DNA from: Papaver somniferum
Taxonomy: Eukaryota > Streptophyta > Magnoliopsida > Ranunculales > Papaveraceae
DNA: 64,000 nt
NCBI RefSeq assembly: GCF_003573695.1
Contig: NC_039358.1
Coordinates: 156,354,920 to 156,418,919, forward strand
Direction of reading: 5' to 3'
The notes below the pieces were generated by a model that did not search any database, was not told the origin of the DNA, and worked only from the letters and a program-made list of their open reading frames with translations. Below are positions 28,422-53,426 of this stretch, piece by piece (positions within the stretch are counted from its first letter, which is position 1; each line of letters starts with the position of its first letter). Made by a program: the position numbers and the translations under genes.

Positions 28422-30971
28422 TGTTCATGGGTGAAAACTATTTCTGTTGTTTTGGTAATTTGGGGTGTGTGGATGAGAAATGAATATAAACCCTAAACAA
28501 ATGCACTGCACGGGAGTGATTTTGATTCGAGAGATCAATCTGTGCAATTCAGGACTAAACCAAGAAATGGCCGTTCCATACTTGCTTCGGTCACAAAGTG
28601 AAGGATATGGGGTTGATCTTAGGGAGGGAAGCGAAGAAGGTGTTGAGATTGTGGAGGTGTTGGTTGTTTATGACTTGTATCAGAAAGAGGAACTGGCTTG
28701 CAATAATGTAAGCTTATCAGCTCTGGTGTTTTCTGGATACAGATGACAACACTTTGGTTTTCTGTGCTTGTTTGTGTGTTGTTTGGAAATAGGTGATGGA
28801 CCTATTTATACAAGTCATAAATCACAAGCCTTGTCTCTCATAGGAAGTGGAGGAAGTGGAGTGATGAAGTAGTGTGGTCGTGTGTGAGTGATTGCACGAT
28901 CACGTTTTGGTCCACTTCTCCCATCATCGCTAACCGTCCATATCTTCCTGACACGTTCTTGTAAGGGGGTGTTGCACGCTGGACGCTGTAAACCGCCAGA
29001 CCAATACCCCAGTAAGTATCCCCCAGTTTGTGACATGCTTGATGTCTCGAATGAGTGGATCGTGGGACCCACAAGGAGTAGCATACGATGCTAGGTTAAA
29101 TAACTGAGTTATTTAGGAAATCGATGTTCATGAAATATCGTGTATACTCTATACATGTAATGCATAGAATATAATCAATGTGTATGAAGCATCGTTGTTT
29201 TAAGGCTTAACGTAGTAAGTCGCAGATTAAGCGTCTTAAAACAGATGCATGCTTAGATATGTTCGAATGATAGTTTGGAGGTTGCACAGGAAACCCCTCC
29301 CTTGGACGATATCATGACGTGGTAGAGTGGCGGATGGTAATCACTACGACATATTATTGGCCATTTAACTCCTAGCCTGGGATGTCTAACCAAGCTGGTA
29401 GAGTTGGACGGACGAGATGATATATGACGCTCATCTGCGACCATTGATGAAGTTTTTTGGGTTTTGAAGAGGTGCGCAAGCATCACTCTTCAGCTTGGTC
29501 GAAACCAAGCATGGACGACGTTTTTGGCAGGACTGACCGGGCATGCGGGTAGACGGCTTGCCGGTGTACATGTCCGTACCTCACTATCTCATGAAGGTGC
29601 GATCTAGGCCACTGAATTTGACCGGTAAAGAGGAGTGGCCGAGATAATATTTCGACAGGAATCCTATGCCGCAAAGGATTCTTAAAGGGGCGCGGCATGC
29701 CACCTTCAAGGCACACGAATCGCGGCATCCATCCATGGCTTGTCTTTGTCGGTCGGACATAGAGATAAACGGGCCCACAGTGATCATGTTGATACTTTCT
29801 GGACTTCCTTAGTCTATTCCTGCGCCCTTCATCCAAGCTGGCGAAGATGGACGCTCGTGATTGATTAACGACACATGTAAAACATTCACGCACGCATGGT
29901 TTTGGCTAATCGGTTTTGCAGGTTAGGCTTCTCCTTTGGAGAGGTCGATCATGTGGGGCCCACGTTGGGCCGACAGTGAACGTGTGTGCACTTCTCCAAT
30001 GGTCTTAGGTGCAATCTAAGCTATCCAAACATGCTGGCGAAGTTGGATGGTTGTGATTTTTTTAAGACACTAGTGGAACTTCCGCGACCTTTAAAAGCAT
30101 CATGCCAGCCATGTTTGGAGCAAACGTTCATTGCTCCATGGCTTTGTCGTGAGAAAACCGATCGGACAGGGATAGAGTGGGCCCGCTAATTTGCGTGCTA
30201 GCGCCTCCTCCATCTTTCATGGTGCGATCTAATTCGTGCAATCAGGCTAGTGAAGTTGGAATATCATGATCACTTTGAGACTACCTTAAGCAGTCTTGCT
30301 CATTCGATCTTCTTCCAAAGCAGCGTGGCCACCCTATTTTGGGTTGGCGTTTTGGCATGCTGAGAAGAGGAGTGTGATGTTCGATCGGCTAGGACGCAAA
30401 CAAGCCCGCTGGTGGTCATCACGGTGATAGCCTGCTCCTGCTAGGGTTCGTCTAGTCTAGTTAAATCATGCGGTCAACCTGCGTGGCCGTGATTATTTCT
30501 GAGACTGATACGGTCAGTCCAGATTTCCCTTAGGAAATTAAATATGCTCAATCGGGATAATATAACACACCGAGAGATATAGCCTATACAAGTATTTCGT
30601 GCATGCCTCATCATCGATACTTGGAGATTCGTGTTACTCTGCTGAGAGCAACACTCATTCATCATGCCGCACCAACAATGAGATTTCTGCGGGAACAACA
30701 CAGGAAATACTAGGAAAATCATGCATTATAAATAATGATAAAAATTCACAGGGTATTCGGGATTGTTGCCACATGCTCCAACCTGGATGAATTTTGTATA
30801 TTTAATTCACAGAAATATTTGGGATTATTGCCACATGCTCCATTCTAGGTGAATTAATTAAAGCGAAGAGGTACTCATCACTTATCAAATAGCTTTATCC
30901 TCTGCAGGATGTCAGCGCATAAAATTTGGCTTTACAATTTTAGCCTTTGAACCAAAAATTCACCACCAACA
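28422..30971 (-). repeat. Element B 3' LTR (2550 bp)
   Basis: Colinear and closely similar to 34035-36541 plus 41433-41493. Contains the hairpin modules at 29384-29409, 30021-30050 and relics at about 30240-30275. Short ORFs inside are not genes. Confidence 0.92.
29384..30275 (-). repeat. Hairpin modules in element B 3' LTR
   Basis: GTCTAAC (29384-29390) pairs with GTTGGAC (29403-29409). CTATCCAA (30021-30028) pairs with TTGGATGG (30043-30050) through one G-T pair, where the sister LTR has perfect CCATCCAA/TTGGATGG. The loops share CTGG-GAA/CTGG-AGA. A third copy near 30236-30272 has lost pairing here but keeps it in the sister LTR. A shorter CATC/GATG copy lies near 29830. Confidence 0.7.
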
Positions 30972-31120
30972 TTAAGTCCCTTGCCTAGCACACAATGGTT
31001 ACACTATTGTGGGGTAGGCATTAGATGGTGACAAATAAAGATAAAATTTATGAGACAAAGTTAGATGTTACCAGGAGAGATGGGTCGTCCTGTCTTTAGA
31101 TTTCAAGAGGCATCCAGGTG

Positions 31121-31336
31121 AGCGTTGAAGCAGCTTCTGAAGCGAACCTGGAGGCGGCTCTTGGAGAGAGCGTTGAAGCAGCTTCTGAAGCGAACGCGGA
31201 GGCGTCTCCTGGAGAGAGCGTTGAAGCATCTTCTGAAGCGAACGTGGAGGCGGTTCCTGGAGAGAGCGTTGAAGCAGCTTCTGAAGCGAACGTGGAGGCG
31301 GCTCCTGGAGAGAGCGTTGAAGAAGCTTCTTCTTCA
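31121..31336. repeat. 48-bp tandem repeat, 4.5 copies
   Basis: Exact-phase units start at 31121, 31169, 31217, 31265 and 31313 (partial). Being a multiple of three, the period leaves long open frames on both strands: plus reads SVEAASEANVEAAPGE repeatedly, minus reads a basic SRSLQKLLQRSLQEPPP repeat (31068-31436). Which strand, if any, is translated is unknown; the element itself reads on the minus strand. Confidence 0.85.
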
Positions 31337-32869
31337 GTTTGGTTTTCTCTTTACATGCTTCTAGATTGACATCTCTTGTGTAGAAGAAGTCCTTGACTAA
31401 TGGCGAAGGAATATCGTGCTGAGTCTCAGTCCCCAAGCATGACTTATATGGTTTTATCTCTGTCCGTAGTGGTTGTTGCTATGGTAAAGCTCGGGCACTG
31501 GTATCAACAAACGAACAACGGTTCTCAGCTGCAGTTGTGATCAGAAAATACTGGCAAGAAAAGGCGTGACAGCTCCGGGCTCGAACTCGGCGGTCATCAT
31601 ATAGTGGTAGAGCTTGTCTCGTCATTAGAGGGAGAAGCTACTGATGGAACCGATAGCTTCCTTCATGCTGCCTCATGGAACGGAAAATAGAGAGACAGTC
31701 CCCTGCCCATGAGTATCTACTGAGCCTTCGACTTGATAGATGTTGTCACGCTGGGTTCATGAGGCCGTCTTTACGTCTGCGTTGCGTTTCACAGACGTCC
31801 AGGAATATCACTGGCCTTCGACAATACGTCTTCTCTCTTGAGTATATCCTCGTCTTTGGACATCTTGGAATGATAGCGTGCTTGCATCTCTCTCACCATA
31901 TTTGAGATGGGCAGTGTTAAGAAGTCCCCAGTCATACTCCTTTGCCATTATCATCTTTGGATCGTGTCTTTGAGGAGTAGGGAAGTTCTTTCATGCGAAT
32001 GACTTAACTAATAGGTTTTGCAAATATGATGAAGCTCTGGACATGGAGAATCTGTATGTACCTCTTAAGTCCCAGGTGCAATCTCTTTTGGTAAGGCAAC
32101 TACTTCTTCTACGGGAGACGAAATTCTGAAAGTGTCCCTTATTGATGTTGCTGTCGTCGAGCCAGACATGGAATATCTTGGAAGTTTTTTCATCACTGTG
32201 GCAGCCGTGCATGTGGTACTGGAGTTGGAGTTGGCAATTTTGGACGCGCATGATGTTGTATCTCCGTGGTTTTCCTCTTGCTGCTTCAGCGAAACTGCTT
32301 GCAGAAGACCGAAGGTTGTATTGCATGTTGGTAAGATGTATGCGAACATCATGAGGCTCTTCATTACTAACAGGCTCGTTCTTTCTATCAGGGCAGGTGC
32401 TGTCGCAACTGAGTGTTTAACAGCTTCATAGATGTCTGAAAGTGCGGGTTCTTCGACAAAGCACGATTGAAAGGTAACATCCTATTGATGCACAATTACA
32501 CCACTTGTTGTTAAGTCACATTTGGATCGTGACCCTCCATTTCCTGATTCCGGGAGCTCTTGACATAATCATTTGGATGTTCGCTGTTTAGCTGAAGTAT
32601 TCCTCTTAATTCCGTCAGAGTGATTCACCCAAGATGCGGATTCTTTCTCGACATGATGATGCGGACATCGCTATCTTCTTGAGGCCGCTCCCTTGAGGTG
32701 TCGGCTCCAGTAGATCTGAAGATGTCACGGGCTCGCTCTCGTCTGAGCTGACATAATAGGCGAACTCTTTATGACGATTTGGAGATGAAAATATTCGTTG
32801 AATCTTCCGAAACGCTTCCTGTTGTAGTGTGGTTCATACGAAGCTTGCTCCTTTCTTCAGCAACGGGGT

Positions 32870-34034: not shown

Positions 34035-36541
34035 TGTTTATGGGTGAAAACTATTTCTATTTTTTTGGTAATTTGGGGTGTGTGGATGAGAAATGAATCT
34101 AAACCCTAAACAAATACACTGCACGGGAGTGCTTTTGATTCGAGAGATCAATCTATGCAATTATGGCCTAAACCAAGAAATGGATGTTCCAGACTTGATT
34201 CGGTCACAAAGTGAAGGTGATGGGGTTGATCTTAGGGAGGGAAGCGAAGAAGGTGTTGAGATTGTGGAGGTGTTGGTTTTTTATGACTTGTATCAGAAAG
34301 AGGAACTGGCTTGCAATAGTGTAAGCTTATCAGCTCTGGTGTTTTCTGGATGCGGATGACAACACTTGGTTTTCTGTGCTTGTCTGTGTGTTGTTTGGAA
34401 ATAGGTGATGGACCTATTTATACAAGTCATAAAGCACAAACCTCGTCTCTCGTAGGAAGTGGAGTGATGAAGTAGTGTGGTCGTGTGTGAGCGATTGTAC
34501 AATCACGTCTTGTCCCACTTCTCCCATCATCGCTAACCGTCCATGTCTTCCTGACACGTTCTTGTAAGGGGGTGTTGCACGCTGCACGCTGTAAACCGCC
34601 AGACCAATACCCCAGTAAGTATCCCCCAGTTTGTGACATGCTTGATGTCTCGAATGAGTGGATCGTGGGACCCACAAGGAGTAGCATACGATGCTAGGTT
34701 AAATAACTGAGTTATTTAGGAAATCGATGTTCATGAAATATCGTGTATACTCTATACATGTAATGCATAGAATATAATCGATGTGTATGAAGCATAGTTG
34801 TTTTAAGGCTTAACGTAGTAAGTCGTAGATTAAGTGTCTTAAAACAGATGCATGCTTAGATATCTTCGAATGATATTTTGGAGGTTGCACAGGAAACCCC
34901 TCCCTTGGCCGATATCATGACGTGGTAGAGTGGCGGATGGTAATCACTACGACATCTTATTGGCCATTTCACTCCTACCCTGGGCTGCCTAACCAAGCTG
35001 GTAGAGTTGGACGGACGAGATGATATATGACGCTCATCTGCGACCATTGATGAAGTTTTTTGGGTTTTGAAGAGGTGCGCAAGCATCACTCTTCAGCTTG
35101 GTCGAAACCAAGCATGGACGGCGTTTTTTGCAGGACCGACCAGGCATGCTTGTATACGGCTTGCTGGTGTACATGTCCGTACCTGACTATCTCATGAAGG
35201 TGCGATCTAGGCCACTCAGTTTGACCGGTAAAGAGGAGTGGCTGAGATCAAATTTTGACAGGAATCCCATGCCGCAAAGGATTCTTAAAGGGGCGTGGCA
35301 TGCCACCTTCAAGGCACACGAATCGAGGCATCCGGCCTGGCTTGTCTTGGTCGGTCATACATAGAGATAGACGGGCCCACAGTGATCACGTTGATACTTT
35401 CTGGACTTCCTTAGTCTATTCCTGCACACTTCATCCAAGCTGGCGAAGATGGACGCTCGTGATTGATTAACGACACATGTAACATGCCACAAACCCTAAT
35501 TAGGGTTTGAAAACAGTCACGCACGCATGGTTTTGGCTAATCGGTTTTACGGGTTAGGCTTCTCCTTTGGAGAGGCCGATCATGTGGGGCCCACGTTGGG
35601 CCGACAGTGAACGTGTGTGCACTTCTCTAATGGTCTTAGGCGCAATCTAAGCCATCCAAACATGCTGGCGAAGTTGGATGGTTGTGATTGTTTTAAGACA
35701 CTAGTGGAACTTCCACGACCTTTAAAAGCATCATGCCAGCCATGTTTGGAGCAAACGTTCATTGCTCCATGGCTTTGTCGTGAGAAAACCGATCGGGCAG
35801 GGATAGAGTGGGCCCGCTAATGTGCGTGCTAGCGCCTCCTCCATCTTTCATGGTGCGATCTAAGCCGTCCAATCAGGCTAGTGAAGTTGGACGATCATGA
35901 TCACTTTGAGACTGCCTTAAGCAGTCATGCTCATTCAAGCTTCTTCCAAAGCAGCGTGGCCACCCTATTTTGGGTTGGCGTTTTGGTACGCTGAGAAGAG
36001 GAGTATGATGTTCGACCGGCTAGGGAGCAAACAAGCCCGCTGGTGGTCATCACGGTGATAGCCTGCTCCTGCTAGGGTTCGTCTAGGCTAGTTAAATCAT
36101 GCGGTCAACCTGCGTGGCCGTGATTATTTCTGAGACTCATACGGTCAGTCCAGATTTCCCTTAGGAAATTAAATATGCTCAATCGACATAATACAATACA
36201 CGGAGAGATATAGCCTATATGGGTATTTCGTGCATGCCTCATCATCGACACTTGGAGATTCGTGTTACTCTGCTGAGAGCAACACTCAGTCATCATGCCG
36301 CACCAACAATGAGAGTTCTTCGGGAACAACACAGGAAATACTAGGCAAATCATGCATTATAAATCATGCTAAAAATTCACAGGGTATTCGGGATTGTTGC
36401 CACATGCTCCAACCTAGATGAATTTTGTATATTTAATTCACTGAAATATTTGGGATTATTTCCACATGCTCCATTCTAGGTGAATTAATTAAAGCGAATA
36501 GGTACTCATCACTTATCAAATAGCTTTATCCTCTGCAGGAT
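34035..36541 (-). repeat. Element B 5' LTR, large part
   Basis: Interrupted 61 bp before its outer end by C1; the rest is 41433-41493. Hairpin modules: CCATCCAA (35652-35659) with TTGGATGG (35674-35681), and CGTCCAA (35866-35872) with TTGGACG (35887-35893), both perfect. The last five bases (36537-36541) are the C1 target duplication. Confidence 0.92.
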
Positions 36542-36996
36542 TGTAGGATCAGAATCTCTCACAGAAGAATATGCAAGCCAGATCCGAAATTATGGGAAAT
36601 GTTAGTTGTATATTAGCTGTCATCCACTATGTAAACACCTATATAAAGAGAAAGGAGAGAGAGAGAAAGGGGAGAGATAATCAGAAAGAGAGACACACTT
36701 TAGGAGAGGATACATTCTGTAGAGAGAGAAAGTAGAATTGGTTGTATTATTATTATCTCCTTCTTCTTCCTCCTTCAAGAACCTAGAGCTCCAAATACTC
36801 ATTAATGGAGTCTTCATGTAATCTAGATGTAATTACAAATAATCATAGTAAAACCTAACCCCGTGGACGTAGATCAAATTGATCTAACCACGTAAACCTT
36901 GTGTCTCTTTACAATTTTAGCATTCTTATCATCATTTTTATGTTTAGATCTATAAATTATTACAAGGGGTGTGTTGTAGGATTTCCTGCAACTACA
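36542..36996 (+). repeat. C1 5' LTR (455 bp, internally deleted)
   Basis: TGTAGGATCAG to GCAACTACA. Lacks about 157 bp present in the 3' LTR: after AGAATATGC it jumps to AAGCCAGATCC. TATA box ATATAAAG at 36641-36648. Confidence 0.9.
36641..36648 (+). promoter_or_regulatory. TATA box of C-family LTR
   Basis: CCTATATAAAGAGA is present in all C1 and C2 LTRs (36639; about 41070, 43608, and 46027 with one change). A purine-rich transcribed leader follows. Confidence 0.65.
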
Positions 36997-36998
36997 TT

Positions 36999-37302
36999 TT
37001 TGGCGCTAGAAATAGAGAGCGAGTAAAGGATTTATCCTTCCTGTAACTTTTTGGTTCAAGAAATTTCCATGAAGATTAGCTACTGTTCATATTTTTCTAG
37101 ATCTACAAAGTTTAGGTTCAAAAATGGAAATTTTATGGAAGAAATCACACTTTCAGGGAGTAAACATCATCAACAATTCAAAGACATGAAAAGAGTGAGA
37201 GAAAAAAAATTAGTTGTTGTGGTGAAATTTAAGGAAAAAAATGGAAGTTTTAGTGGAAGATTTTCATGTTCAGGAGAAGAAACAAGGGAAAGACGAAGAT
37301 AA
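36999..37302 (+). other. C1 leader with primer-site-like sequence and an 83-codon frame
   Basis: TTGGCGCTAGAAAT starts three bases after the LTR. The TGGCGC core suits Tat-type primer sites; the exact tRNA is not certain. A frame at 37051-37302 is open (MKISYCSYFSRSTK...), but the same sequence in C2 is broken by a one-base change in an A-run (near 44218), so it is probably not a conserved gene. Confidence 0.5.
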
Positions 37303-37483
37303 GATAAGAGGCAGGCGCTGTAATTTCTGTCACAAACAGAAATTCACACAGATGGTTCAAGGCTGAGCGAACAATAAATAGGTCACGGGTTCGAATTCGC
37401 AGAGACACATATTTTTCATTTTCTTCTCATTTGCATGGGAGAATAAAAGAATAAGGAAAAAAGTTATGTGTTAATTTCGTAGA

Positions 37484-37573
37484 GAGGTTCTTGCACAATT
37501 GGTCCAGAGAGCAGTATGTGCGTTCGTGGTCGCAAGTTCGAATTCGCCTGCGAACATAGTTTTCTTCTTTTTT
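37484..37573 (+). ncRNA. C1 tRNA-like module 2
   Basis: TTGCACAATTGG (A box-like) with T8, T9, G10, C11, A14, then AAGTTCGAATTC (B box-like) 34 bases further. T6 at 37568. D-stem and anticodon stem poorly formed. Confidence 0.6.
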
Positions 37574-37625
37574 ACAGAGAGCGAAAAATGAATAATTTCG
37601 CAATATTGTTTCATTATTTCGCAAA

Positions 37626-37706
37626 CAAGAGGTAGCACAATTGGTCATCTGCGAAGTTAATGAGTTCATGGTCGTGTGATCAAGTCCCAACACATGCATA
37701 TTTTTT
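37626..37706 (+). ncRNA. C1 tRNA-like module 3
   Basis: TAGCACAATTGG with canonical T8-A9-G10-C11 and A14; B box is degenerate (TGATCAAGTCCC). Anticodon stem has three central pairs around a TTAATGA loop with T33; read literally the anticodon would be AAT, but this is not a functional call. T6 at 37701. Confidence 0.55.
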
Positions 37707-37778
37707 CGCACAGATATTTCTTTGATTATTTCGCACAGAAGAGAGTTGATGATAATTTCGCAGAGATATTTTGCAAAG

Positions 37779-37862
37779 AAGAAGCTTGCACAGTTGGTCA
37801 GGAGGAATGAATGCAAGCATCAGGTCGCGAGATCAATTCTTGCTTCTCGCATGATTATTTTT
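37779..37862 (+). ncRNA. C1 tRNA-like module 4
   Basis: TTGCACAGTTGG, then GAGATCAATTCTTGC with T stem GCGAG/CTTGC (one G-T pair). Outer bases GAAGC and GCTTC can pair but two positions out of tRNA register. T5 at 37858. Confidence 0.6.
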
Positions 37863-37942
37863 GTTACGCGAAATTTATACAGAATTTTCTCTCACACAGT
37901 TGGAATTTGATTACTTCGCAAGAACTCTGATTATTTCGCAAG

Positions 37943-38025
37943 AGAGGCTTAGCACAGTTGGTATGGTGTGAGAATATGCAAGTAGAAGGTCGCGGGTTCA
38001 ATTCTTGCCTCTCGCATCTATTTTT
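37943..38025 (+). ncRNA. C1 tRNA-like module 5
   Basis: TAGCACAGTTGG is a near-perfect A box; GCGGGTTCAATTC is a close B box. T stem GCGGG/CTTGC has five pairs (two G-T), and the D stem GCAC can pair with GTGT. GAGAGGC/GCCTCTC at the ends pair seven bases, again shifted by two from the normal acceptor register. T5 at 38021. Confidence 0.65.
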
Positions 38026-38094
38026 GCTAAGCGATATTTATACTTCATGCAACGTATTTTTCGCGCGAGATTGACAACAACAGCGAATCACATA

Positions 38095-38680
38095 AAACCT
38101 AAGTACCACTTTCCTTGAACATTTTACTTTTACAGAAAATAAAAGATTTTTGATTTGATTTACAAAAAGCGATTCAATCGCACGATTACAAAGATTTTAA
38201 GATTTCAAAGATTATAAAGATTACTAAGATTTCAAGATTACAAAGACTTCAAAATTACAGAGATTTCGAGATTTCGAAATTACAGAAAACTGAGAAAATT
38301 CAATTTATATGTTTCTCTTGAATATTTCTTTTGCATAGAATAAAAATATTTTTAATTTGATTTACAAAACGCGATAGAATCGCAGAATTACAAAGATTTC
38401 ACAACTACAAAGATTTCAGAGTTACCATGTATTAGAATTTCTCTTGAATATTTACTTTGATTCAAATGATATGATATTATGAGAATGAAAGAATGAATGA
38501 AAGAGATGACAGAAATGAAAGAATGAATGAAAGAGATGACAGAAATGAAAAGATGAATGAGAGAATAAAGAAACGCGAACATTTCGCAGAAACAAAGAGA
38601 CGCGAAAATTTCACAGAAAAAAAAAGAGAAAGGGGCGAACCTTTATGGCGTACACCCTAGTTCGCGAATATAATTTCGCA
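38095..38680 (+). repeat. C1 AT-rich simple repeats
   Basis: Irregular AAAGATTTC-type repeats (38160-38290, 38380-38420) and a 30-bp tandem repeat, about three copies, starting at 38485, 38515 and 38545 (ATGAAAGAATGAATG...). No gene. Confidence 0.7.
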
Positions 38681-38685
38681 AGAGG

Positions 38686-39185
38686 CAAATGTAAGACCTA
38701 AATTACGTCATATAAGGGGGTACCTGTTGCACGACTCAGCGAAAAGGTTACACCGCCCCTGGAACCTGAGTCATGGAGATTTGGGGTCAATAAAGCCCAT
38801 CCAGGAGAGGTATCTTGTATTTTCAACCTAAGCTTTTGCTTTAGGTTGGACGACTAGGGGTCTCTTCTAAGGAGTGCAGAATCTGATCAAGGCGCCGAGG
38901 TACACGGTTGAGTCAAGAGTGCCAGGGGCGTCTGGAGCGTACCTTGCCATTCTTGACAAGTCTTGGTTTATACTGCACTCGACCCGAAGAAAACCCCACT
39001 TAGGGTGCAGTCTCGTAACCATAAGCCTGATAGGTAAAAGGGACAAGAGGCTGCGAAAACAACTGGTTGTTGTTAAGACCGTATGGGAGGATCTAACCTT
39101 GTATGGTAGAGGTACGCCTCCTTGAAGGGTCAACCAGGGGGGGATATAAGGGCGGCACCCTCCATTAGGGAGCTGATAAGTGTCT
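38686..39185 (+). other. GC-rich conserved block of the C family
   Basis: About 500 bp, much richer in G+C than the surroundings. It recurs in inverted orientation in C3 (about 51908-52412), with long matching runs such as GAGATTTGGGGTCAATAAAG and CTAAATTACGTCATAT-like ends, but is absent from C2. Short frames exist on both strands but are not shared, so it looks non-coding. Confidence 0.65.
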
Positions 39186-39190
39186 TAAGA

Positions 39191-39503
39191 CGCAAATGTC
39201 ATGAGGCTTTTACTCGCAAGGGTATTAATACTTGTCATATTTGTGCGACAGTCCTGAAGAGGCAATAATACTAGAGAAAAAGATAAGACGAGATCAATGG
39301 GTCATTACATGAAAGTGTGAAGACGTCCTGCGATTTCGTCGCAAGATGGCAATGTCATGGGGCTTTATTTTTGCAAGAATATTTATGCCTGACATATTGT
39401 CGCAACAATCCTGAAGAGGCAATAATACAAAAGAAAAAGTTAAGGCAAGATCAATGGGTTTTCGCATGAAAGTGCAAAGACGTCCTGCGATTTTGTCGCA
39501 ATG
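39191..39503 (+). repeat. Two-copy 156-bp repeat
   Basis: Copies start near 39191 and 39347, sharing AATGTCATG-GGCTTT, CCTGAAGAGGCAATAATAC and GACGTCCTGCGATTT. The same duplication occurs in C3 on the opposite strand (51590-51905), so it predates both insertions. Confidence 0.8.
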
Positions 39504-40036
39504 ACAAGAGGTGGCAAAATAAGACTTTTAACTAGGAAGGAAAAATAAGACCACATAAGAAAATGAGTAAGCAAGTAAGCTTGCGATAATGATTATATAT
39601 AAGCAAAGAAGATTGCGAATATGTACATGGAAATGAAACTGAGGCAGTGAAAATGCCGCAGACTTGATATTATGATCATACTGTTATGAGATACTAATAG
39701 TGCAGGAAAGAGGGAAGATGAAAAACAAGTAAGAACTTGTGAAGAACAATAACTACACGAAGAAGAATGCATACACTAAAGAAAAAGGCAGAGAAATGAA
39801 GAATGGAAGCAATTTAGAGCTACATCAATTTTAGACGGCAAAATGAGCTAAGTAACACAAACATTAACTATACATTGCAATACATAAGCATTCTCATCAT
39901 ACTCGCATCATACTCGCATCATAAAAGCATTGCATAAGCATTTCATGGCATAAACATCGCATACACATTTCATAACATAATCATCACATAAGCATTATAT
40001 TCACATAAGTACTTTACAAAACTGTACGGAATAATA
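39504..40036 (+). other. C1 AT-rich internal stretch
   Basis: No gene. 39885-40020 is a loose repeat of CATAAGCAT/CATCATACTCGCAT words. Confidence 0.5.
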
Positions 40037-40215
40037 TTGCAGAATTTCGCAATAATATCGCAGAATTTAGCAGAACTATTCAGGATTATTCAGAATTTCA
40101 CAGGATTATTCAAGAATTTCGCAAGATTATTCAGAACTTCACAGAATGATTCAGAATTTCGCAGAATGATTCAAAATTTCGTAGAATGTGTCAGAATTTC
40201 GCAGAATATGATTCT
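40037..40215 (+). repeat. CAGAATTTCGCA/GATT tandem repeat
   Basis: About eight degenerate copies of a 22-24 bp unit built from CAGAATTTCGCA and GATTATT(T)C. It is open on the plus strand for 74 codons, but only because of the repeat. Confidence 0.75.
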
Positions 40216-40815
40216 TCCAAATGATGTGATTATATATCTCAATTATTTCGCACAATTATAAGCAACTTGAAGAGATTATACTATTGCATGAGCACAAAAC
40301 ATGAGACAAAGGCAAAAATAAGAATAAGGAAACAATTCGCACATTCAACATTTTCTCAAGGATTCTACCCTCATAGATAAAGAACAGAGGCAACTATGGA
40401 TTACCAAGAAAACATTTTATGTTCTTTATCTCCTCGGAAAGAATCATTACCAAAATGGAAGTTCGCTAATGAACAATAAGAATCCTCACCAAAAATGGAG
40501 TAATGATTTCGCACGAATAGAGGATATACTTATTATTCAAGGACATATACTTCTTATGTACTTCACAGAGTTCTTCTTATATTCGAGGATTAAGTACTTT
40601 ATATACTTCATCAAGGATACTCCATACTTCGCATACTTCAAGGGTTGATACTTCTTATTTACTTCGCAATGTTCCAGAACTTCACAAAATAATAGAGGCA
40701 ACTACGTACTTTTCAAGTCTGATATTCTTTCGCTCGTTCCTCCAACAACTACAACAAGGTGGATTTTTTCTTAAAGATCGCTTTTCAAGCAATATTAAAG
40801 AAAAAAGAGGCAAGA
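40216..40815 (+). other. C1 3' internal region and polypurine tract
   Basis: No gene. The last about 110 bp, with CTCGTTCCTCCAACAAC, match C2 (45790-45877). The tract AAAAAAGAGGCAAGA (40801-40815) directly precedes the LTR. Confidence 0.65.
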
Positions 40816-41427
40816 TGTAGGATCAGAATCTCGCACAGAAGAATATGCTTGCGAAATTATTAACAACACATCGCGAAGACATCGCATGATGATTTTAGAA
40901 ACGACATAACAGATGACATCAACTTAAACATGAGAAAAGTGTGATGATTTTGCGAAAATTAGGAATGTTGCAAATGTTACATTTGTAAGCTTGCGAAAAT
41001 ATCGCAAGCCAGATCCGAAATTAAGGGAAATGTTAGTTGTACATTAGCTGTCATCCACTATGTAAACACCTATATAAAGAGAAAGGCAAGAGAGAGAAAG
41101 GGGAGAGATAATCAGAAAGAGAGACACACTTTAGGAGAGGATACATTCTGTAGAGAGATAAAGTAGAATTGGTTGTATTATTATTATCTCCTTATTCTTC
41201 CTCCTTCAAGAACCTAGAGCTCCAAATACTCATTAATGGACTCTTCATGTAATCAAGATGTAATTACAAATAATCATAGTAAAACCTAACCCCGTGGATG
41301 TAGATCAAATTGATTGAACCACGTAAACCTTGTGTCTCTTTACAATTTTAGCATTCTTATAATCATTTTTATGTTTAGATCTACAAATTATTACAAGGGG
41401 TGTGTTGTAGGATTTCCTGCAACTACA
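40816..41427 (+). repeat. C1 3' LTR (612 bp)
   Basis: TGTAGGATCAG to GCAACTACA; holds the 157-bp segment missing from the 5' LTR and otherwise matches it closely. Confidence 0.93.
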
Positions 41428-41498
41428 AGGATATCAGCGCATAAAATTTGGCTTTACAATTTTAGCCTTTGAACCAAAAATCCACCATCAACAATGAG

Positions 41499-41664
41499 AA
41501 TCTATGACCATCAATCGATTTAATTCACGATCAAATCTTCTATATCGATCACTGACTCTCTCTCTCTATCTATCTATCTCTCTTGATCCAACTGACTCTC
41601 TTGATGTCTTTCTGTGTTAAGAGAATGAAAAAATGCTAAAGAAACTAATGAGTATCACTATATT
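41499..41664. other. Sequence between elements B and F
   Basis: Continues 27867-28421. Contains a short CT/TATC simple repeat (41546-41580). No gene. Confidence 0.5.
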
Positions 41665-42320
41665 TGATAAGCAAGAAAGTGAAACACATTTTCACCCATA
41701 AATACATTAGTTGGGACTCATTTTATCACTAATAAACAGTACTCGTAACAGTCAGTTTGGCACACTTGTTTTGAATTTGAAACATCTCTTGTAACGGTGA
41801 ATTCTGTAACGGAAATACAGCGTTGCAGTTTCATTGTAATATTAGTTTTCTTTAATAAAAACACCATTTGAGCTATAATTATATTTTTGAGTGTGTTTTC
41901 ATTATGAGAAGCTAAACCCCAATGCTGGGCCGACGGAGGAAGCCGAACTTCACACATGAGTGAATTTGTATTATTTTCGATATAACTTTTGCACTTATTT
42001 TGAATTGATTTATGATTCGAATTAATTAGTTATTATTTTATTAGATGGGTCATGCTTGCTTAAATTTTTGATGTCCCATGCTTATGATTTATAACTAATG
42101 TTTTGAGGATCTACTTTGGAAAAACAAGAGTCGATGTTTTATTTATTTATTGAGTTATAATTGTTGAGAATAAATAATTGACCCCTATGATATGAATGCG
42201 GTGGAATCCTAGTCCCAGTAACTCTCTCTTTTATTACTTTTATTAAACCTTTAAATTTAATATTCACAAGTCTTAGAGTTCGAATCTTATTTACAACAAT
42301 GACAATTAAAAATTAGATCA
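41665..42320 (+). repeat. Element F 5' LTR, 1.1-kb internal deletion
   Basis: Follows the 3' LTR from TGATAAGCA to about 41737, then jumps from AATAAAC to the AGTACTCGTAACAG that lies about 1.1 kb further on in the 3' LTR (46794 to about 47912). ATAAAC is present at both breakpoints. Confidence 0.85.
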
Positions 42321-42324
42321 ATTT

Positions 42325-42341
42325 TGGCGCCGCCGATGCGG
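42325..42341 (+). other. Primer-binding site of element F
   Basis: TGGCGCCGCCGATGCGG, differing from element A's site by one base. tRNA-Asp type, placing F in the Athila group. Confidence 0.8.
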
Positions 42342-42468
42342 ATTTGTTTTTAGATTAATTTTTTGGTTTATTTTTTTATTATTTTTTTGTATAGTATTTT
42401 CATACTTTTTTTAGGTTTTATTTTTTCCTTTTTATGCGTTTCTTTTTGTATTTCTTTTCAGGGACATT

Positions 42469-43044
42469 TTGAGGATGATGACTTCTTCTGAGGAGACGTC
42501 ACCTACGATGACGCTGGCGAAATATAAGCGTAGAAAGTCAAGTTATCATGAAACCTTATCTGAGATGACGCTTTTTGAATATAAGCGCAGGCAATGGTAT
42601 GGAGTTTCTGCTCCACATGAGGTAAGTGAAGAATCTCCTCTAGAGATATATGAGAAGTATTATAAACACAAACCACCTAGTTTGGAACAAAGACTGATAT
42701 TATTGGAATGCCAAAAATTATTTAATGATGATGATGATCAGTCTTGTAGTGACTCTCCGTTCCAGACAGAATTTGTAGATGACCCTGTGGATGATTGTGT
42801 AGATAATTTGCCTAATTCCATAGATGAATCTATCTCACAAGATAATTCACCAAACTTAGAGGTTGTTTCTAGACCCATATACTTCCAAAAGTTGCCTAAT
42901 TTAGGGTTAGAATTGCGTGCTTCTAGAGTGTTGTTGGATTTTTTTGCAACTAAATATCCAGAGGACTTTCCTATTCCTGATACAGTGCATGAGCCGATTG
43001 ATAATTCCCCAGTCTCAATAGAATCCCCATATTTTGTTCTTTAA
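42469..43044 (+). CDS. Element F ORF, 191 aa, unknown function
   Basis: The only long frame in F, in the position of gag. Two ATGs lie at 42469 and 42475. The N-terminus has two copies of a SEMTLFEYKRR-like motif (TMTLAKYKRRKSSYHETLSEMTLFEYKRRQ). It continues with KPPSLEQRLILLECQKLFND, an acidic D/S-rich middle, and ends SIESPYFVL. No gag core, zinc knuckle or protease motif is visible. Intact, unlike most frames here. It could be a strongly reduced gag N-terminus or an element-specific protein; the function is unknown. Confidence 0.6.
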   Translation: MRMMTSSEETSPTMTLAKYKRRKSSYHETLSEMTLFEYKRRQWYGVSAPHEVSEESPLEIYEKYYKHKPPSLEQRLILLECQKLFNDDDDQSCSDSPFQTEFVDDPVDDCVDNLPNSIDESISQDNSPNLEVVSRPIYFQKLPNLGLELRASRVLLDFFATKYPEDFPIPDTVHEPIDNSPVSIESPYFVL

Positions 43045-43393
43045 GCACTACTTCTTTGTGCAGTAAAAACTTGGTTTAGGGGTAAATCTTGGTTTTTGAT
43101 AGTTTCAGCGTCTCCGCGTTTTCATGATAAGTGTGAAGCTGTCGTTTGTAAATATTGTATTTTGGGTCGATCCCCAAGTTTTCAGGTTATCATTTTATGG
43201 GGATCCTTTTTGTACATTCCAGTAGCTGTATTTTTATTCTTTTTTTTTTTTTTACTTTTTTTGCATCTTATGGATTTCCCATCTTAACTTTTGCATGGGA
43301 TGACTCAATTACATTGAGGACAATGTAATGTTTAAGTGTGGGGGAGTGTTTAACTTTTTACTTTATTGTTTCAGGAATTTCCTTGGAAATTAT
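43045..43393 (+). other. Element F 3' untranslated segment
   Basis: T-rich run at 43222-43252, then TTACATTGAGGACAATGTAATGTTTAAGTGTGGGGG (in parts: CATTGAGGACAATGT and AAGTGTGGGGG), matching element A at 12341-12372. No gene. Confidence 0.6.
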
Positions 43394-43448
43394 GATCAGC
43401 TGTGTAGCGGATCTTTTGATATTTTCAATGACCGGCTGTGTAGCGGGT

Positions 43449-44007
43449 TGTAGGATCCAAATATCGCACAATAGTAAAGCTTGTGAGAATATAGCAGAGC
43501 CTGCGAAATTGTAATGAGAGCCTAAGAGAACGTAGCACGGGCTCCGAAAATGGGGGAATATGAGCTGTACTCCACCATATATGAACTGTCATCCACTATG
43601 TAATATCCTATATAAAGAGAAAGGCAAGAGAGAGAAAGAATAATAATCAGAAAGGGAGGACTCATTGGTAGAGAGAGGGAGAGACACATTTTAAGAGAGG
43701 ATCCATTCTGTAGAGAGGAAAAGTATAATTAGTTGTATTATTATTATCTTCTTCTTCCTTCTTCAACCAAGAGCTCCAAATACCCATTAATGGAGTCTCA
43801 ATTGTAATTCATATGTAATTACAAACAATCATAGTGAAGATCCCTAACCCCGTGGATGTAGATCATATTGATCGAATCACGTAAATCTTGTGTCTTATTT
43901 TCTATTTTCATTATCTTTATCTTTATTTTCATATCAAATAAGTTTAGATCTGAAAATTATTATCATGATATTATAGGGGGTGTGTTGTAGGATTTCCTGC
44001 AACTACA
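43449..44007 (+). repeat. C2 5' LTR (559 bp)
   Basis: TGTAGGATCCA to GCAACTACA, followed by TTTTTGGCGCTAGAAAC, the primer-site-like sequence. Confidence 0.93.
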
Positions 44008-44360
44008 TTTTTGGCGCTAGAAACAGGGAGGAGTAAAGGATTTATCCCTCCTGTAGCTTGTTGGTTCAAAAAATTTCCATGAAGATTATCTATTGTTCAT
44101 ATTTTTCTAGATCTACAAAGTTTAGGTTAAAAAATGGAAATTTTATGGAAGAAATCACACTTTCAGGGAATAAACATCATCAACAATTCAAAGACATGAA
44201 AAGAGTGAGAGAAAAAAATTAGTTGTTGTGGTGAAATTTAAGGAAAAAATGGAAGTTTCAGTGGAAGATTTTCATGTTCAGGAGATGAAGGCAAATGTGA
44301 AAGAAGTTAAGGAAGGACGAAGAAAAGATAAGAGGCAGACGTTGCAATTTCAATCACAAA

Positions 44361-45065
44361 CAGAAATTCGCACAGATGGTTCAAGGCTGAGCGAACAATA
44401 AATAGGTTACGGGTTCGAATTCGCAGAGACACATATTTTTCATTTTCTTCTCATTTTCATGGGAGAATAAAAGAATAAGGAAAACAGTTATGCGTTAATT
44501 TCGCAGAGAAGTCCTTGCACAATTGGTCCAGAGAGCAGTATGTTCGTTCGTGGTTGCAAGTTCAAATTTGTCTGCGAACATAGTTTTCTTCTTTTTTACA
44601 GATAGCGAAAAAATGAATAATTTCGCAATATTGTTTCATTATTTCGCAAACAAGAGGCAGCACAATTGGTCATCTGCGAAGTTAATGAGTTCATGGTCGT
44701 GTGATCAAGTCCCAACACATGCATATTTTTTCGCACAAATATTTCTTTGATTATTTCGCATAGAAGAGAGTTGATGATAATTTCGCAGAGATATTTCGCA
44801 AAGAAGAAGCTTGCACAGTTGGTCAAGAGGCATGAATACAAGCAGCAGGTCGCGGGATCAATTCTTGCTTCTCGCATGTTTATTTTTGTTACGCGAAATT
44901 TATACAGAATTGTCTCTCACACAGTTGGAATTTGATTACTTCGCAAGAACTTTGATTATTTCGCAAGAGAGGCTTAGCACAGTTGGTATGGTGTGAGAAT
45001 ATACAAGTAGCAGGTCGCGGGTTCAATTCTTGCCTCTCTCATCTATTTTTGCTAAGCGACATTTA
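44361..45065 (+). ncRNA. Array of five tRNA-like modules in C2
   Basis: Same five modules, order and orientation as in C1. G19/G53 pairs: 44379/44413, 44526/44560, 44669/44703, 44822/44856, 44986/45021, again 34, 34, 34, 34 and 35 bases. T-runs follow each module. Module 4 has an improved T stem here (GCGGG/CTTGC). Differences from C1 are scattered, but A-box GG, B-box core and the spacing are unchanged. Because C1 and C2 are separate insertions, the array is an inherited family trait and not a chance tRNA insertion. Confidence 0.7.
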
Positions 45066-45877
45066 TACTTCATGCAACGTATTTTTCGCGCGAGATTGAC
45101 AACAACAGCGAATCACATAAAAGCTAAGTACCACTTTCCTTGAACATTTTACTTTTACAGAAAATAAAAGATTTTTGATTTGATTTACAAAAGGCGATGT
45201 AATCCCAGAATTACAGAAGTTTCATAATTACAAAGATTCCACAATTACAAAAGAAACCGAGAAAAATCTCGCACAGATCAATTTATATATTTCTCTTGAA
45301 AATTTGCTTTGTTTCAAATGAGAATGATATCTAACATGGAGAGTAGTAGGAGGCAACATAAGACCTTCCATAAACATGCTAGTAAGACCTTCCATCAACA
45401 GGCTGCATAAGACCTCATTAGGATCATTTCCATGAAAGATGTTTATCGGATGAGACGAAACAAGTTATACAAAGGAAATCAAAACAAAGAAAAACGATTT
45501 GAACTTGCAATTAAATGAAAATTTTTATAAAAGAAATGTTGAATACTAATCTAAATTCTTATTTGCATTACAGCACAACATGAGGCAGAGAACGCAGGGT
45601 AATAATTTTGCAATACATCTTATTCGCAGTCAAGGATAGATACTTCTTATATTTCGAGGATTGAGTACTTCTTATACTTCTTCAAGGATACTTCATACTT
45701 CAAGGGTTAATACTTCTTATTTACTTCGCAACGCTCCGGAACTTCACAAAAGAATAGAGGCAAGTACGTACTTTTCAAGTCCAATATTCTTTCGCTCGTT
45801 CCTCCAACAACTACAACAAGGTGGATTTTTCCTTAAAGATCGCTCTTCAAGCAATATTCAAGGAAAAATAGGCAAGA
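45066..45877 (+). other. C2 3' internal region
   Basis: No gene. Contains two copies of TAAGACCTTCCAT (about 45360-45400) and the conserved 3' end shared with C1, then the polypurine tract AGGAAAAATAGGCAAGA. Confidence 0.6.
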
Positions 45878-46436
45878 TGTAGGATCCAAATATCACACAA
45901 TAGTAAATCTTGCGAGAATGTAGCAGAGCCTGCGAAATTATAATGAGAGCCTGGGAGAACGTAGCACGGGATCCGAAAATGGGGGAATATGAGTTGTACT
46001 CCACCATATATGAGCTGTCATCCACTATGTAATATTCTATATAAAGAGAAATGCAAGAGAGAGAAAGAATAATAATCAGAAAGGGAGGACTCATTGGTAG
46101 AGAGAGGGAGAGACAAATTTTAAGAGAGGATCCATTCTGTAGAGAGGAAAAGTAGAATTAGTTGTATTATTATTATCTTCTTCTTCCTTCTTCAACCAAG
46201 AGCTCCAAATAGTCATTAATGGAGTCTCAATTGTAATCCATATGTAATTACAAACAATCATAGTGAAGATCCCTAACCCCGTGGATGTAGATCACATTGA
46301 TCGAACCACGTAAATCTTGTGTCTTATTTTCTATTTTCATTATCTTTATCTTTATTTTCATATCAAATAAGTTTAGATCTAGAAATCATAGTCATGATAA
46401 TACAAGGGGTGTTTTGTAGGATTTCCTGCAACTACA
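45878..46436 (+). repeat. C2 3' LTR (559 bp)
   Basis: Same length as the 5' LTR. Differences are spread along the LTR and mostly transitions. Confidence 0.93.
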
Positions 46437-46446
46437 CGGGTCTAAA

Positions 46447-46477
<31 letters not shown>

Positions 46478-46721
46478 ATAAAAATAAATGATCAGCTGTG
46501 TAGCGGGTCCATAAAAAAATATATTATGATAGTTAGGGTTATGACCAGCTGTGTAGCGGGTCTTTTCTTTTTTCTTGCATGTTATGACCAGCTGTGTAGC
46601 GGGTCTCTAAAAAAAAAAATTGTATCCCGGGTTTAAATCTCTCTTATTATATGACCAGCTGTGTAGCGGGTCAATTTTCTGTTTTGCTCGAGGACTAGCA
46701 AAATGTAAGTGTGGGGGAATT

Positions 46722-48123
46722 TGATAAGCACGAAAGTGCAACACAATTTCACCCATAAATACATTAGTTGGGACTCATTTTATCACTAATAAACTTGTTT
46801 GTAGGTGTTTTTGGGAAAATAAACGTTTTTAGAAGAATCGGCTCGAAAAACTGTTAAAGGCACCTCCGGAGGACATTTGCTATTCAGACTCTCATTGTTG
46901 GCTAAGGGGCACCCAGTTGCTAAGGAGCAACCTATTTGTTATTTACACCTATGGTTATTCGCACCCCAGAACAGGATAAGGGGCAGCTTCATCTTCTTCA
47001 TTTCATATTCAAGTTTTGGCGGGAAAAATAATTCTCTACCGGCAGATTTAGGGTTTGTGATTTGGGTGTGCTTTAAGGAGACTAAAGGGCTGAGATTAAT
47101 TGGGTATGTTGCTCTGGGATAGACAGGGTTGGTAATGGTCGTCGTTCAGATCATAATTGGTTATAATGGTGGATTTAATGATTGAACAGTTCCCGGGATT
47201 ACTCGATATTTTTGGCATTGAGTTTGAACTTGATTTGGCCGTAGATTTCATTAGTTTTGGATTGAGAGTGACATGCCATGCCTAAACAGGTAAGGTGACG
47301 TGTTTGAGCAACAAAAATAAATACCAAATATCCTCAAATTTGTTAAACAGGGAATATGTACTTCACAAACTGATGGATTTATGGAAAAGACTTGGAAGAT
47401 ATTCTTTGAGATTTGTTCACTAGATTTGATTAGGATTCACCTGTTTCCACTAAACAGGGGTGGTAATTGAATTGAAATCAAAAGAGGAAGGATATTTTAC
47501 CATTTGGAAGATAATCAGGGAAATTGTTTATGTACGTGAAGATAACTCGGGATATGGTTGAGACTGAGTGTGGCAAGTGAGTGTTTCACGAGTTTGCTGA
47601 AGTTCGACAGAAGGTGGCAGAGTGTAGAAGATAAATAAGGAAGAAAATAACAGCTACAGGGCGTACGAAAAGATAATAATATGGAAATAAATCTTGTATC
47701 CTGCATGGAAATAAAGAGAATATTGTTGATTGATTGCGGGGATCTGATGGTGTTGTTGGATATAAACAGAGTCAGTGGAGATCAGAGAAGGATATCGAGA
47801 GTTGGGGAGAAGAACAGAAGGTTGCAGAGAAGATTTCTCTGCTACTGCAGAGAAGAAGAAAAAGAAGAACATTTGACGCTACTAACTGTCGCAGAGAACT
47901 GTCGTTTATAAACAGTACTCATAACAGTCAGTTTGGCACACTTGTTTTGAATTTGAAACATCTCTTGTAACGGTGACTTCTGTAATGGCAATACAGCGTT
48001 GCAGTTTCATTGTAATATTAGTTTTCTTTAATAAAAACACCATTTGAGATATAATTATATTTTTGAGAGTGTTTTCATTATGAGAAGCTAAACTCCAACG
48101 CTGGGTCGATGGAGGAAGCCGAA
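46722..48123 (+). repeat. Element F 3' LTR, first part
   Basis: Starts TGATAAGCACGAAAGTGC with a GCAC/GTGC hairpin at 46728-46739. Interrupted by C3 after CCGAA; continues at 53903-54276 and ends in ATCACATCA. Contains only short chance frames. Confidence 0.88.
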
Positions 48124-48594
48124 TATAGTTGCAGGAAATCCTACACTACACCCCTCATATGATTTCATTGTTGATCAGCTAATTTTTTAGGTTTATGTTC
48201 TTTATTTTATTGATTAAACTTTGAATGTTCTTACAAGAAAGCTAAAGAAGTCAAGAATGATCTCTGCTCTGGACTTTCTCTCTCCTATTTACTTGTTTTT
48301 TACTCAAAAAGATCTCTATCTTTTCTTTACAATTCGAATGACTATTTATAAGGAAATACATAGTGGATGACAGCTAATCTGTCCTTTATTTTCGGATATG
48401 ATTTGTGACATTCTCGCAACCTTAGAAATGTTAATTTCACAAACTCTCTAATTTTCGCAGGACTATCATATCTTTCTCGTGTTCTTAGCTGACGCCATTT
48501 ATTTTATCATTTCTGGAGTTGTTTTGCGACGCTTAAGTGCTGTGTCATTGATAATTTCGCTGAAACATTATTGTTGCGAGATTCTGATCCTACA
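48124..48594 (-). repeat. C3 3' LTR (471 bp)
   Basis: On the minus strand TGTAGGATCAG to GCAACTATA (one change from the usual CTACA end). Near-identical to 53427-53897. Confidence 0.92.
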
Positions 48595-48794
48595 TCTTGC
48601 CTCTTCTCATATCTTTTCTGCGAAGTAGAGAATGATGTGAGAAATGCCGCAACTATTTATCTTTTCATATTCTGCATTTATCACACGTATTCTTTTTTCT
48701 ATTTATTTCTCGACACGTCTTTTGTAACCGTTACTTTTTAACCGCTTATATCTTCTCGTATAAACTGTTTTATTTTTTCGAGGAAAAATTCCCT

Positions 48795-48803
48795 CTATAT
48801 ATA
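48795..48803 (+). promoter_or_regulatory. TATA box of the C3 antisense gene
   Basis: TATATATAT about 190 bases before the ATG at 48986, followed by a CT-rich leader as in many plant 5' UTRs. Confidence 0.5.
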
Positions 48804-49298
48804 TTCCCTTTCACTCTCTTCTTCTTTCCTTTTATTCTTTCTGCAACTTCATCGTTCTTTTGCAAATTCCCTTATTGCAACTTTTCTTCTTTCTTCTTCA
48901 ACCTTTTTAAGTTCTTCTTCATCTTCATACTAGATCTTCATAGTTCATAATTTTCTTCGAGACAATCTTCCTTCTATTATTTTTCATGGATTCATCAAGG
49001 TTAGTCTTCTTTTTTCTTCTTTATGAGTTTTACTGAAATTAACATATCTGAAATTGATCTTGTTTATTTCCTTATTTGATGTTGTTTATGTTGTTGATAC
49101 GATTCCCATACTCTTGTTATTTCAGCAAAAGCGGCTCCAACACTAGATTTACAGTTCAGAACCCTAACATTCCCAAATCACAGCATAAGGTTGTCGCACA
49201 TAAAAGAAAGTCTGCGAATGAGAAGGTAGTAAGAAACACTATCTTTTTCTAATAACAAAATTGTTGCCTCTGTTTCTTATCTGGATTATAATTTGCAG

Positions 49299-49926
49299 GG
49301 TGATAAAGATCTTAGTAAACCTCTCAAGAAATCTCGCCACCTTAAAGTTGTTCCAACTTCTGTTCCCTTCCACCTACTCATTTCTTCCAAATCTCCTGCG
49401 ACATCTTCGCAAGATAAATCTTTATCCCCAATTCGCGAAAATGCTGCTTCTGATTTCATTACTTCCAAATCTCATGCGACCTCTTCGCAAGATAAACCTT
49501 TACCTCCAACTCGCAAAAATGTTGCCTCTGATTTCATTTCTTCAATTGACCTTTCTATGATTGAAACTCCCCTTGTGGATCCTTCTGCGACTGAAACCTT
49601 TTCTCTTCCCATTGAGAATATTTCTCAACCTTCTGTCTCTACTAGTTCTTTACCCAAGTCTCTTCCTCTGTCGAAAGAAACCGTGGAAGGAATAGATATT
49701 GCTTTCAAAGTTTTATCTGAAATTCTGGATGACGGCAAGAAGTATTCTACTGATCCCATCAAGTCTAATGTTTGCGAGATTCTGAGCAAGCATTTGGGTT
49801 TTGGCAGAGCTGCTTCGTAGACAGCTTTAGAAAAAGAATGTAATGCTCTTCGTCTTGAAAATCAGAAACTTCAGAATGTTTTGCTGGATCGCGACAATCT
49901 TCGCAAGAAGAATGATGAGTTAAGAG
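49299..49926 (+). CDS. C3 antisense gene, exon 3
   Basis: Codes GDKDLSKPLKKSRHLKVV, an internal duplication (SSKSPATSSQDKSLSP and TSKSHATSSQDKPLPP), then DIAFKVLSEILDDGKKYSTD and, after the TAG at 49818-49820, the start of the coiled coil. Ser/Pro-rich and probably disordered in its first half. Confidence 0.65.
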
Positions 49927-50022
49927 GTATGATTTCCTTATTTATGTCTTTAATTTGCCTTTTCGATGTTTTTATCCTTCCCATGTTTAATTATCCTTTA
50001 AATCCCTCTTTCGCATGTTAAG

Positions 50023-50682: not shown

Positions 50683-50777
50683 TAGTCATAATAGTTTGAC
50701 TGCCTTAATTATCTTTTCTTTGTCATATCTCTCTGAATTCTTTATCTTAATAAAATTTTGTATTCTATCTTTTGCAG

Positions 50778-51287: not shown

Positions 51288-51589
51288 TTTTTGTCATCTC
51301 CTGTTACTGACATTAATATTGAAGATTCAGCTTCTTATCTAGTTTTATCTTCTTGAATTGTCTTATTTCTATCACTTTTGCGAATTACACTTTTCTACCA
51401 ACTTTGGAATCAACTTTTCTTTTATTTTGTTGATGAGAAAGATAATGCTTCTTTTGTATTGATTCCCATACTTGCCTCTCATTATCTTTATTGCAAAAAA
51501 TAATATGTTGCGAATGCTTATAATTAATTTGTTTTATCATATGGTCTTATTTTTCCTTCCTAATTAAAGGTCTTATTATGCCACCTTTT
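51288..51589. other. 3' flank of the C3 antisense gene
   Basis: T-rich, no gene; probably the 3' UTR and terminator region of the antisense transcript. Confidence 0.4.
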
Positions 51590-53317: not shown

Positions 53318-53426
53318 ATTTCTTCCAACTGATTCACTGATTTATTTAATCACTTTCTTGATTTGAATATTCTCAATCAACAATCTTCAACTTTCGATCT
53401 TCAATTCCCTGTTTCTAGCATCATTA

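Follow-up and report, generated by a model that had tools for sequence, protein, structure and literature searches.

We analysed a window of 64,000 nucleotides of Papaver somniferum DNA (contig NC_039358.1, positions 156,354,920 to 156,418,919, forward strand; all coordinates below are those of the window). It holds a complete non-autonomous long terminal repeat (LTR) retrotransposon, C1, whose internal region carries five tandem units, here called modules, with A- and B-box-like elements at the spacing of transfer RNA (tRNA) genes. A first-pass annotation of this DNA had placed five such units in a retrotransposon where gag-pol should be. Both statements were borne out: all five were located there, C1 lacks gag-pol and the array lies in its internal region. 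The parts of C1 are listed below; T8 is the T at tRNA position 8, and T4, T5 and T6 are runs of four, five and six T.

36537–36541 and 41428–41432: target-site duplication (TSD) of C1, AGGAT, 5 bp
36542–41427, + strand: C1, complete non-autonomous LTR retrotransposon, 4886 bp, TG...CA ends
36542–36996, + strand: 5′ LTR of C1, 455 bp
37001–37018, + strand: primer-binding site (PBS) region of C1, TGGCGCTAGAAA..., read by eye
37022–38161, + strand: block holding the array, nearly homogeneous among copies (60-bp windows at 0.89–0.99 identity to C1)
37332–37416, + strand: module 1; T8 at 37344, B box GGTTCGAATT, T5 at 37412
37479–37573, + strand: module 2; T8 at 37491, T4 at 37560, T6 at 37568
37621–37706, + strand: module 3; T8 at 37633, B box with GATC, T6 at 37701
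37774–37862, + strand: module 4; T8 at 37786, B box with GATC, T5 at 37858
37938–38025, + strand: module 5; T8 at 37950, best A and B boxes, 25-nt linker, T5 at 38021
40797–40815, + strand: polypurine tract adjoining the 3′ LTR of C1, read by eye
40816–41427, + strand: 3′ LTR of C1, 612 bp

C1 has two LTRs with TG..CA ends (they start with TGTAGG and finish with CTACA), a 5-bp TSD, a PBS and a polypurine tract, and is without gag-pol, as in a non-autonomous LTR retrotransposon. Its longest stop-free stretch is 130 codons, in antisense, and Pfam gave no match on the two pieces of C1 tried. The PBS region sequence is common to C1, to a second element in the window (C2) and to L074, a part of a strongly diverged relative. 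We take the insertion of C1 as recent because its two LTRs differ at only 19 of 455 aligned positions. A gap near 36568 leaves the 5′ LTR 157 bp short of the 3′ LTR, although elsewhere the two differ by only 4%. The internal region (36997–40815) is also rich in the hexamer TTCGCA, which occurs 20 times, including outside the modules, against 0.6 expected by composition; its reverse complement, TGCGAA, occurs 4 times against 0.9 expected.

The five units and their spacing

An A/B-box detector was built solely from tRNA genes of the host genome, with the A box taken from 13 tRNAs and the B box from 15. At a score of at least 8.5, a cut-off fixed after the scores were known (the next match in C1 scores only 3.0), it returned five matches in the 3819-nt internal region of C1, all on the plus strand and all coinciding with the five modules, and none on the minus strand. 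Across 400 dinucleotide shuffles of the internal region the mean number of matches was 0.33 (maximum 3), falling to 0.04 (maximum 1) when a distance of 34 or 35 between the boxes was required. Other sequence of the window, 94,600 nt over both strands, contained seven matches, one of them with that distance. Five matches against 0.33 in shuffles rule out a chance origin of the array; it is the series of five, not single weak units, that is beyond chance. When the detector was applied to 15 real tRNAs, 13 scored 20.0–29.2, one scored 2.8 and one was missed; module 5, at 23.9, falls within the range of real tRNAs.

The array lies ~340–1030 bp behind the 5′ LTR, with all five units on the same strand. 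A tRNA-like distance of 34 or 35 from G19 to G53 had been claimed, and we measured 34, 34, 34, 34 and 35 in modules 1–5. Eleven of 12 tRNAs measured in the host genome agree (34 in six, 35 in five and 36 in one; these are 12 of the 15 kinds typed, some of them organelle-like). The T-run that had been noticed behind every unit was confirmed, the first run of at least four T beginning 68, 69, 68, 72 and 71 nt after T8 in modules 1–5, and the 710-bp block 37331–38040 contains exactly five runs of at least five T, one per unit. Adding p1, p2 and p4 of the diverged relative L066 (described below; its p3 was left out), the first such run starts 68–72 nt past T8 in 8/8 units; for a 17-nt window in C1, the background probability of a start is 0.123 for runs of at least four T and 0.028 for at least five. 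Only p4 among these eight has an inner T4. CAA is found 9–12 nt upstream of T8 in 6/8 units (background 0.17), and is a plant tRNA-gene motif to judge from the title of Yukawa 2000, cited in PMC12308677. Conservation of T8 in modules 2–5, a further claim of the annotation, stands for C1, but the T of module 3 is private to C1, 28 of 30 copies being without it.

Promoter features and the tRNA fold

The annotation had also proposed that the units might be tRNA mimics, or mimic the replication primer, and neither proposal was supported. With default settings, ARAGORN found no tRNA gene in the window. Relaxed, it called module 5 only at -ps90 and gave weak further calls at -ps85 and -ps80. The sole Rfam match on the array was tRNA-Sec at module 5, with 18 bits against a cut-off of 47 (E = 1.2), and at the gathering threshold there were no Rfam matches in 36400–46600, a range that includes all of C1 and the LTRs of C2, or in the genomic places L061, L063, L066 and L074.

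In the acceptor stem 1–3 of 7 pairs form, where chance gives ~2.6; no unit has an anticodon hairpin exceeding those of shuffled linkers; and the folding z-scores of 14 units range from −1.1 to +1.2, no better than shuffles. Modules 4 and 5 close the T stem with 5/5 pairs; besides these two, only p4 reaches 4–5 pairs. No unit is complementary to the PBS region over more than 7 nt. Functional tRNA genes are ruled out by the ARAGORN and Rfam results and the missing acceptor and anticodon stems, structured RNA by the z-scores and stem pairing at chance level, and mimicry of the PBS or replication primer by the short complementarity. By eye, a 7-bp helix joins the ends of module 5 (GAGAGGC/GCCTCTC); a shorter variant is seen in module 4, and none in modules 1 and 3.

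The units retain the features that TFIIIC and RNA polymerase III (Pol III) recognise on DNA, but not those that make up a tRNA. Because boxes, spacing and T-runs are kept while stems and fold are lost, we regard them as promoter-terminator units and not as tRNA mimics. The annotation's other suggestion, a series of type-2 Pol III promoters, is therefore the one whose predicted anatomy is matched, in boxes, spacing and terminators, with the same geometry recurring in L066. As far as sequence can tell, it is likely that the units are promoter cassettes. The fuller statement, that they are type-2 promoter-terminator cassettes derived from tRNA genes, in which the DNA promoters were kept and the tRNA fold was lost, appears probable.

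Copies and diverged relatives

Two further elements of the window are related to C1:

43449–46436, + strand: C2, related to C1 and 2988 bp long, with all five modules; flanked by the TSD CGGGT
44356–45050, + strand: module array of C2; four units at 8.5 or above, its module 2 at 7.1
48123–53897, − strand: C3, an LTR relative with an integrase-like fragment, in which no module was found

The LTRs of C2 differ at 28 of 558 positions. C3 contains a segment 89% identical to 38611–39563 of C1. Pfam found nothing on the integrase-like piece of C3, whose label rests on similar poppy proteins, one each with PF00078, PF13456 and PF00665, which we take to be reverse transcriptase, RNase H-like and integrase core domains. 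In its 3′ part, C1 has a tandem duplication of 159 bp (39187–39344 and 39343–39501), which C3 shares (51594–51909).

A genome search with the 710-nt block gave 1427 first-look candidates, and all 40 that were scored match the block at 95–100% over at least 707 nt. A pattern for a strong A–B pair had 89 matches in the genome and its reversed control 0; by eye, all but three of the matches are of the module-5 type. The array of five units is present in C1, C2 and 30 aligned copies, with single losses: the length from T8 to position 61 is constant except in one copy each for modules 4 and 5, and for modules 3, 4 and 5 a T-run shorter than four occurs in a single copy each.

We compared up to 29 copies with C1 in 60-bp windows. 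Identity was 0.89–0.99 in 37022–38161, 0.76–0.83 in windows beyond 38162 and 0.60–0.87 in LTR windows (0.92 in the window crossing the LTR end); the copies were chosen by the 710-nt query, which biases them to identity inside it, and the homogeneous block reaches ~310 nt upstream and ~120 nt downstream of that query. Between copies whose LTRs differ greatly, conservation changes abruptly on entering and on leaving the block, which suggests swapping of the module block between LTR subfamilies. The block behaves as a unit, either constrained or spread via recombination between LTR types. At one place, L065, members of the same family form a chain of LTR-internal-LTR-internal-LTR, which recalls the tandem arrays of other short LTR elements.

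One of the pattern matches, C7:154447269, sits in another element, covered by the places L066, L073 and L074. This element has a related LTR start (TGTAGGAGTGAAATATCGC), the same PBS region sequence and a polypurine tract, and is read as interrupted by a nested copia-like insertion. In blastn comparisons with C1, its 3′ pieces match at 67–87% and its LTR end and leader at 71%. Two of the four units in L066 match (~75%), one of them with a second, weaker match to module 5, and no alignment was obtained for the sequence between units. Units p1, p2 and p4 have 24-nt linkers and T5 at 68–72 nt. A profile built from eight units (the five of C1 with p1, p2 and p4) finds two outside its training set, one in L068 (E = 3e-11) and one in L069 (E = 2e-6), each with a linker of 24 nt; in the 64-kb window it finds nothing else up to E = 4.3.

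Possible role of the array and known elements

On the integrated element, TFIIIC, TFIIIB and Pol III would be expected to bind the array, and Pol III starting at a unit would stop after ~80 nt at the T-run. Such transcripts could not be replication templates, because they would be terminated, would come from sequence behind the PBS and would end before the 3′ LTR; the RNA of the element would instead come from the LTR by RNA polymerase II (Pol II). The array may act in cis on the inserted DNA, by keeping a stretch next to the LTR's Pol II promoter occupied and resistant to silencing. By an alternative route it might act through short RNAs, and occupancy is favoured over small RNAs because structure is not kept. 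Selection has probably maintained the array, and a cis role in chromatin is put forward tentatively. TFIIIC-based insulators exist in other eukaryotes, going by the title of a review cited in PMC12308677. The most specific form of the proposal, a selected internal battery of Pol III cassettes that recruits TFIIIC and Pol III and shields Pol II-driven insertions from silencing as the element's own tDNA-type insulator, is unlikely to hold in full.

Several observations weigh against a maintained set of promoters. Modules 1–4 score 8.7–13.0, below real tRNA genes, and single spots in 72 kb of null sequence reach 13.1, so that the case rests on the series. CAA is absent in module 2 and p1, position 54 of the B box is A and not T in modules 3, 4 and p2, and the L068 unit has G58. 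In favour of promoters, at twelve tRNA-invariant positions the mean pairwise identity of the eight units is 0.88, against 0.51 for the other positions in 8–61 (permutation p = 1e-5; 0.87 against 0.50, p = 0.0002, for the C1 units alone), in a test that is partly circular, the units having been selected through their boxes, and that took in C1's own module 3 with its private T8. The profile matches and the terminator positions are less biased evidence in favour. Speaking against a pure promoter reading, GGTC (45–48) is also kept between units, and linker identity is 0.40 against 0.25 by chance, a weak conservation; both similarities are what plain ancestry would give. Nor do the copies reveal the extra constraint on box positions that the annotation had looked to. 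Among the 30 copies, 31/1500 letters at critical positions deviate from the majority against 490/19783 elsewhere, or 17/1350 against 274/16486 once CG/CHG sites are removed, and in a separate copy alignment box columns vary at 0.0253 and the remainder at 0.0252. Equal variation is expected if most differences postdate insertion, and it lends selection no support. In L066, the linker of p3 is shortened by 16 nt. The L069 unit is decayed, without a T-run at the right place, and L068 resembles L066 (82% over 380 nt) and is thus not a fully separate family. Nine places carrying the neighbouring 3′ segment were fetched; a unit is present in two of them and none was seen in the other seven (L070–L072, and L075–L078, which are covered over ~1.1 kb on one side only). 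In C3, neither the detector nor the eight-unit profile finds a unit, the best detector match scoring 7.2 at a distance of 28. The lineage does not require the array, since 7/9 fetched places and C3 show no unit; the array is old, kept in some branches and missing in others.

A passive relic, in which a cluster of tRNA genes or tandem heads of short interspersed elements (SINEs) were taken up by an ancestral element and the array hitch-hikes without function, is a possible if somewhat doubtful explanation. It would accommodate the critical positions being no less variable than others, the members without an array, the residual linker and GGTC similarity, the p3 deletion and the lost terminator of L069, and such capture does happen, as in a mosquito gypsy element that seems to have acquired a tRNA dimer (PMC3286476); it fits less well with L066, which keeps spacing and T-runs although its spacers do not align with those of C1, and with the partly circular p of 1e-5 at promoter positions. 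Action as RNA, either as tRNA-like structure in the element transcript or as small RNAs serving packaging, primer mimicry or as decoys, could explain why the T stem is fully closed in modules 4 and 5 and why GGTC is kept outside the boxes. The weak acceptor stem, the lack of an anticodon hairpin, the unremarkable z-scores of the 14 units, the sub-threshold Rfam and ARAGORN results and the short PBS complementarity make it very improbable. A landing pad, with internal Pol III units attracting the integration of relatives much as Ty3 integrates upstream of Pol III genes (PMC8632968), could leave a chain such as that at L065; the chain is read as LTR recombination, and we give this explanation hardly any weight.

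Pol III promoters in LTR elements are known from Cassandra, Helenus and Ajax (PMC10886601, PMC10853983), and the described elements that we found carry theirs in the LTR, where element RNA can be made. Helenus (TRIMp3; Kojima 2024) is likewise a non-autonomous LTR element with tRNA-derived sequence that has conserved A and B boxes and is mostly unable to encode a tRNA. It has one tRNA-like sequence per LTR and a size of 311–1263 bp, the range of terminal-repeat retrotransposons in miniature, and the only plant reported with it in PMC10886601 is Selaginella. C1 (4886 bp) and C2 (2988 bp) exceed that size, and their detector matches of at least 8.5, five and four respectively, are all internal, none in the LTRs, with each unit terminated. 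Cassandra shares with C1 the bearing of a host Pol III promoter by a plant LTR element, but its 5S promoter lies in the LTR and is used for its own transcription (PMC10853983), whereas the promoters of C1 are type-2, internal and terminated within ~80 nt, and no 5S-type Rfam match was found at the gathering threshold in the C1 and C2 LTRs (36400–46600) or in L061, L063, L066 and L074. Unlike the transcripts described or proposed for Cassandra and Helenus, those of the C1 units could not be replication templates. By the features tested, C1 is neither Helenus nor Cassandra.

More than one tRNA-derived sequence beside the 5′ LTR is described for cqgypsy_1 of Culex quinquefasciatus (Osvaldo lineage), a Ty3/gypsy-type LTR element (PMC3286476). 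It carries a dimer of two intact tRNAs (Lys and Glu) at the 5′ LTR/PBS boundary, which fold as cloverleaves, have CCA, span 149 bp and come from a single reported element; C1 belongs to a large family, and its five units lack a fold, bear T-runs and lie ~340–1030 bp behind the LTR. tRNA-derived SINEs, the tRNA-dimer SINE Twin among them, also have a degenerate tRNA body in which A and B boxes keep the tRNA spacing. The C1 units appear to differ in being arranged in tandem at constant positions within an LTR element, with which they move. The Retand Ty3-gypsy elements resemble C1 in a long internal region (from pol to the 3′ LTR), tandem repeats and non-autonomous members; the main text of PMC11963269 mentions neither tRNA nor pol III. 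The annotation's remark that no internal tRNA-module array had been described stands in so far as we found none, and is qualified by the partial precedents of Helenus, with one per LTR, and the cqgypsy_1 dimer. In the literature searched, for which subscription papers and preprints were outside the scope, no report emerged of a 3–5 kb element with a terminated array of several fold-less promoters of tRNA-gene type.

The anatomy of the array is firm and unusual, its function hypothetical. A terminated internal array would separate the recruitment of Pol III factors from replication, and, if selected, would provide a natural case for asking whether mobile DNA in plants is protected from silencing by TFIIIC/Pol III occupancy. 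In a large genome, the array may also give rise to reads that resemble tRNA and to spurious tRNA gene predictions.

Other repeats were noted in passing. A direct repeat pair of 2.5 kb, 94% identical (28422–30910 and 34035–36541), ends at the C1 insertion point, and perhaps represents the LTRs of a larger element. At 31120–31359 lies a tandem repeat with a 24-bp step, in which alternate copies match better (a 48-bp period). Elsewhere in the genome, L058 and L059 are two places in the nuclear assembly that bear, in nearly identical form, eleven tRNA genes within 1.4 kb, a cluster that by its look is organelle-derived.
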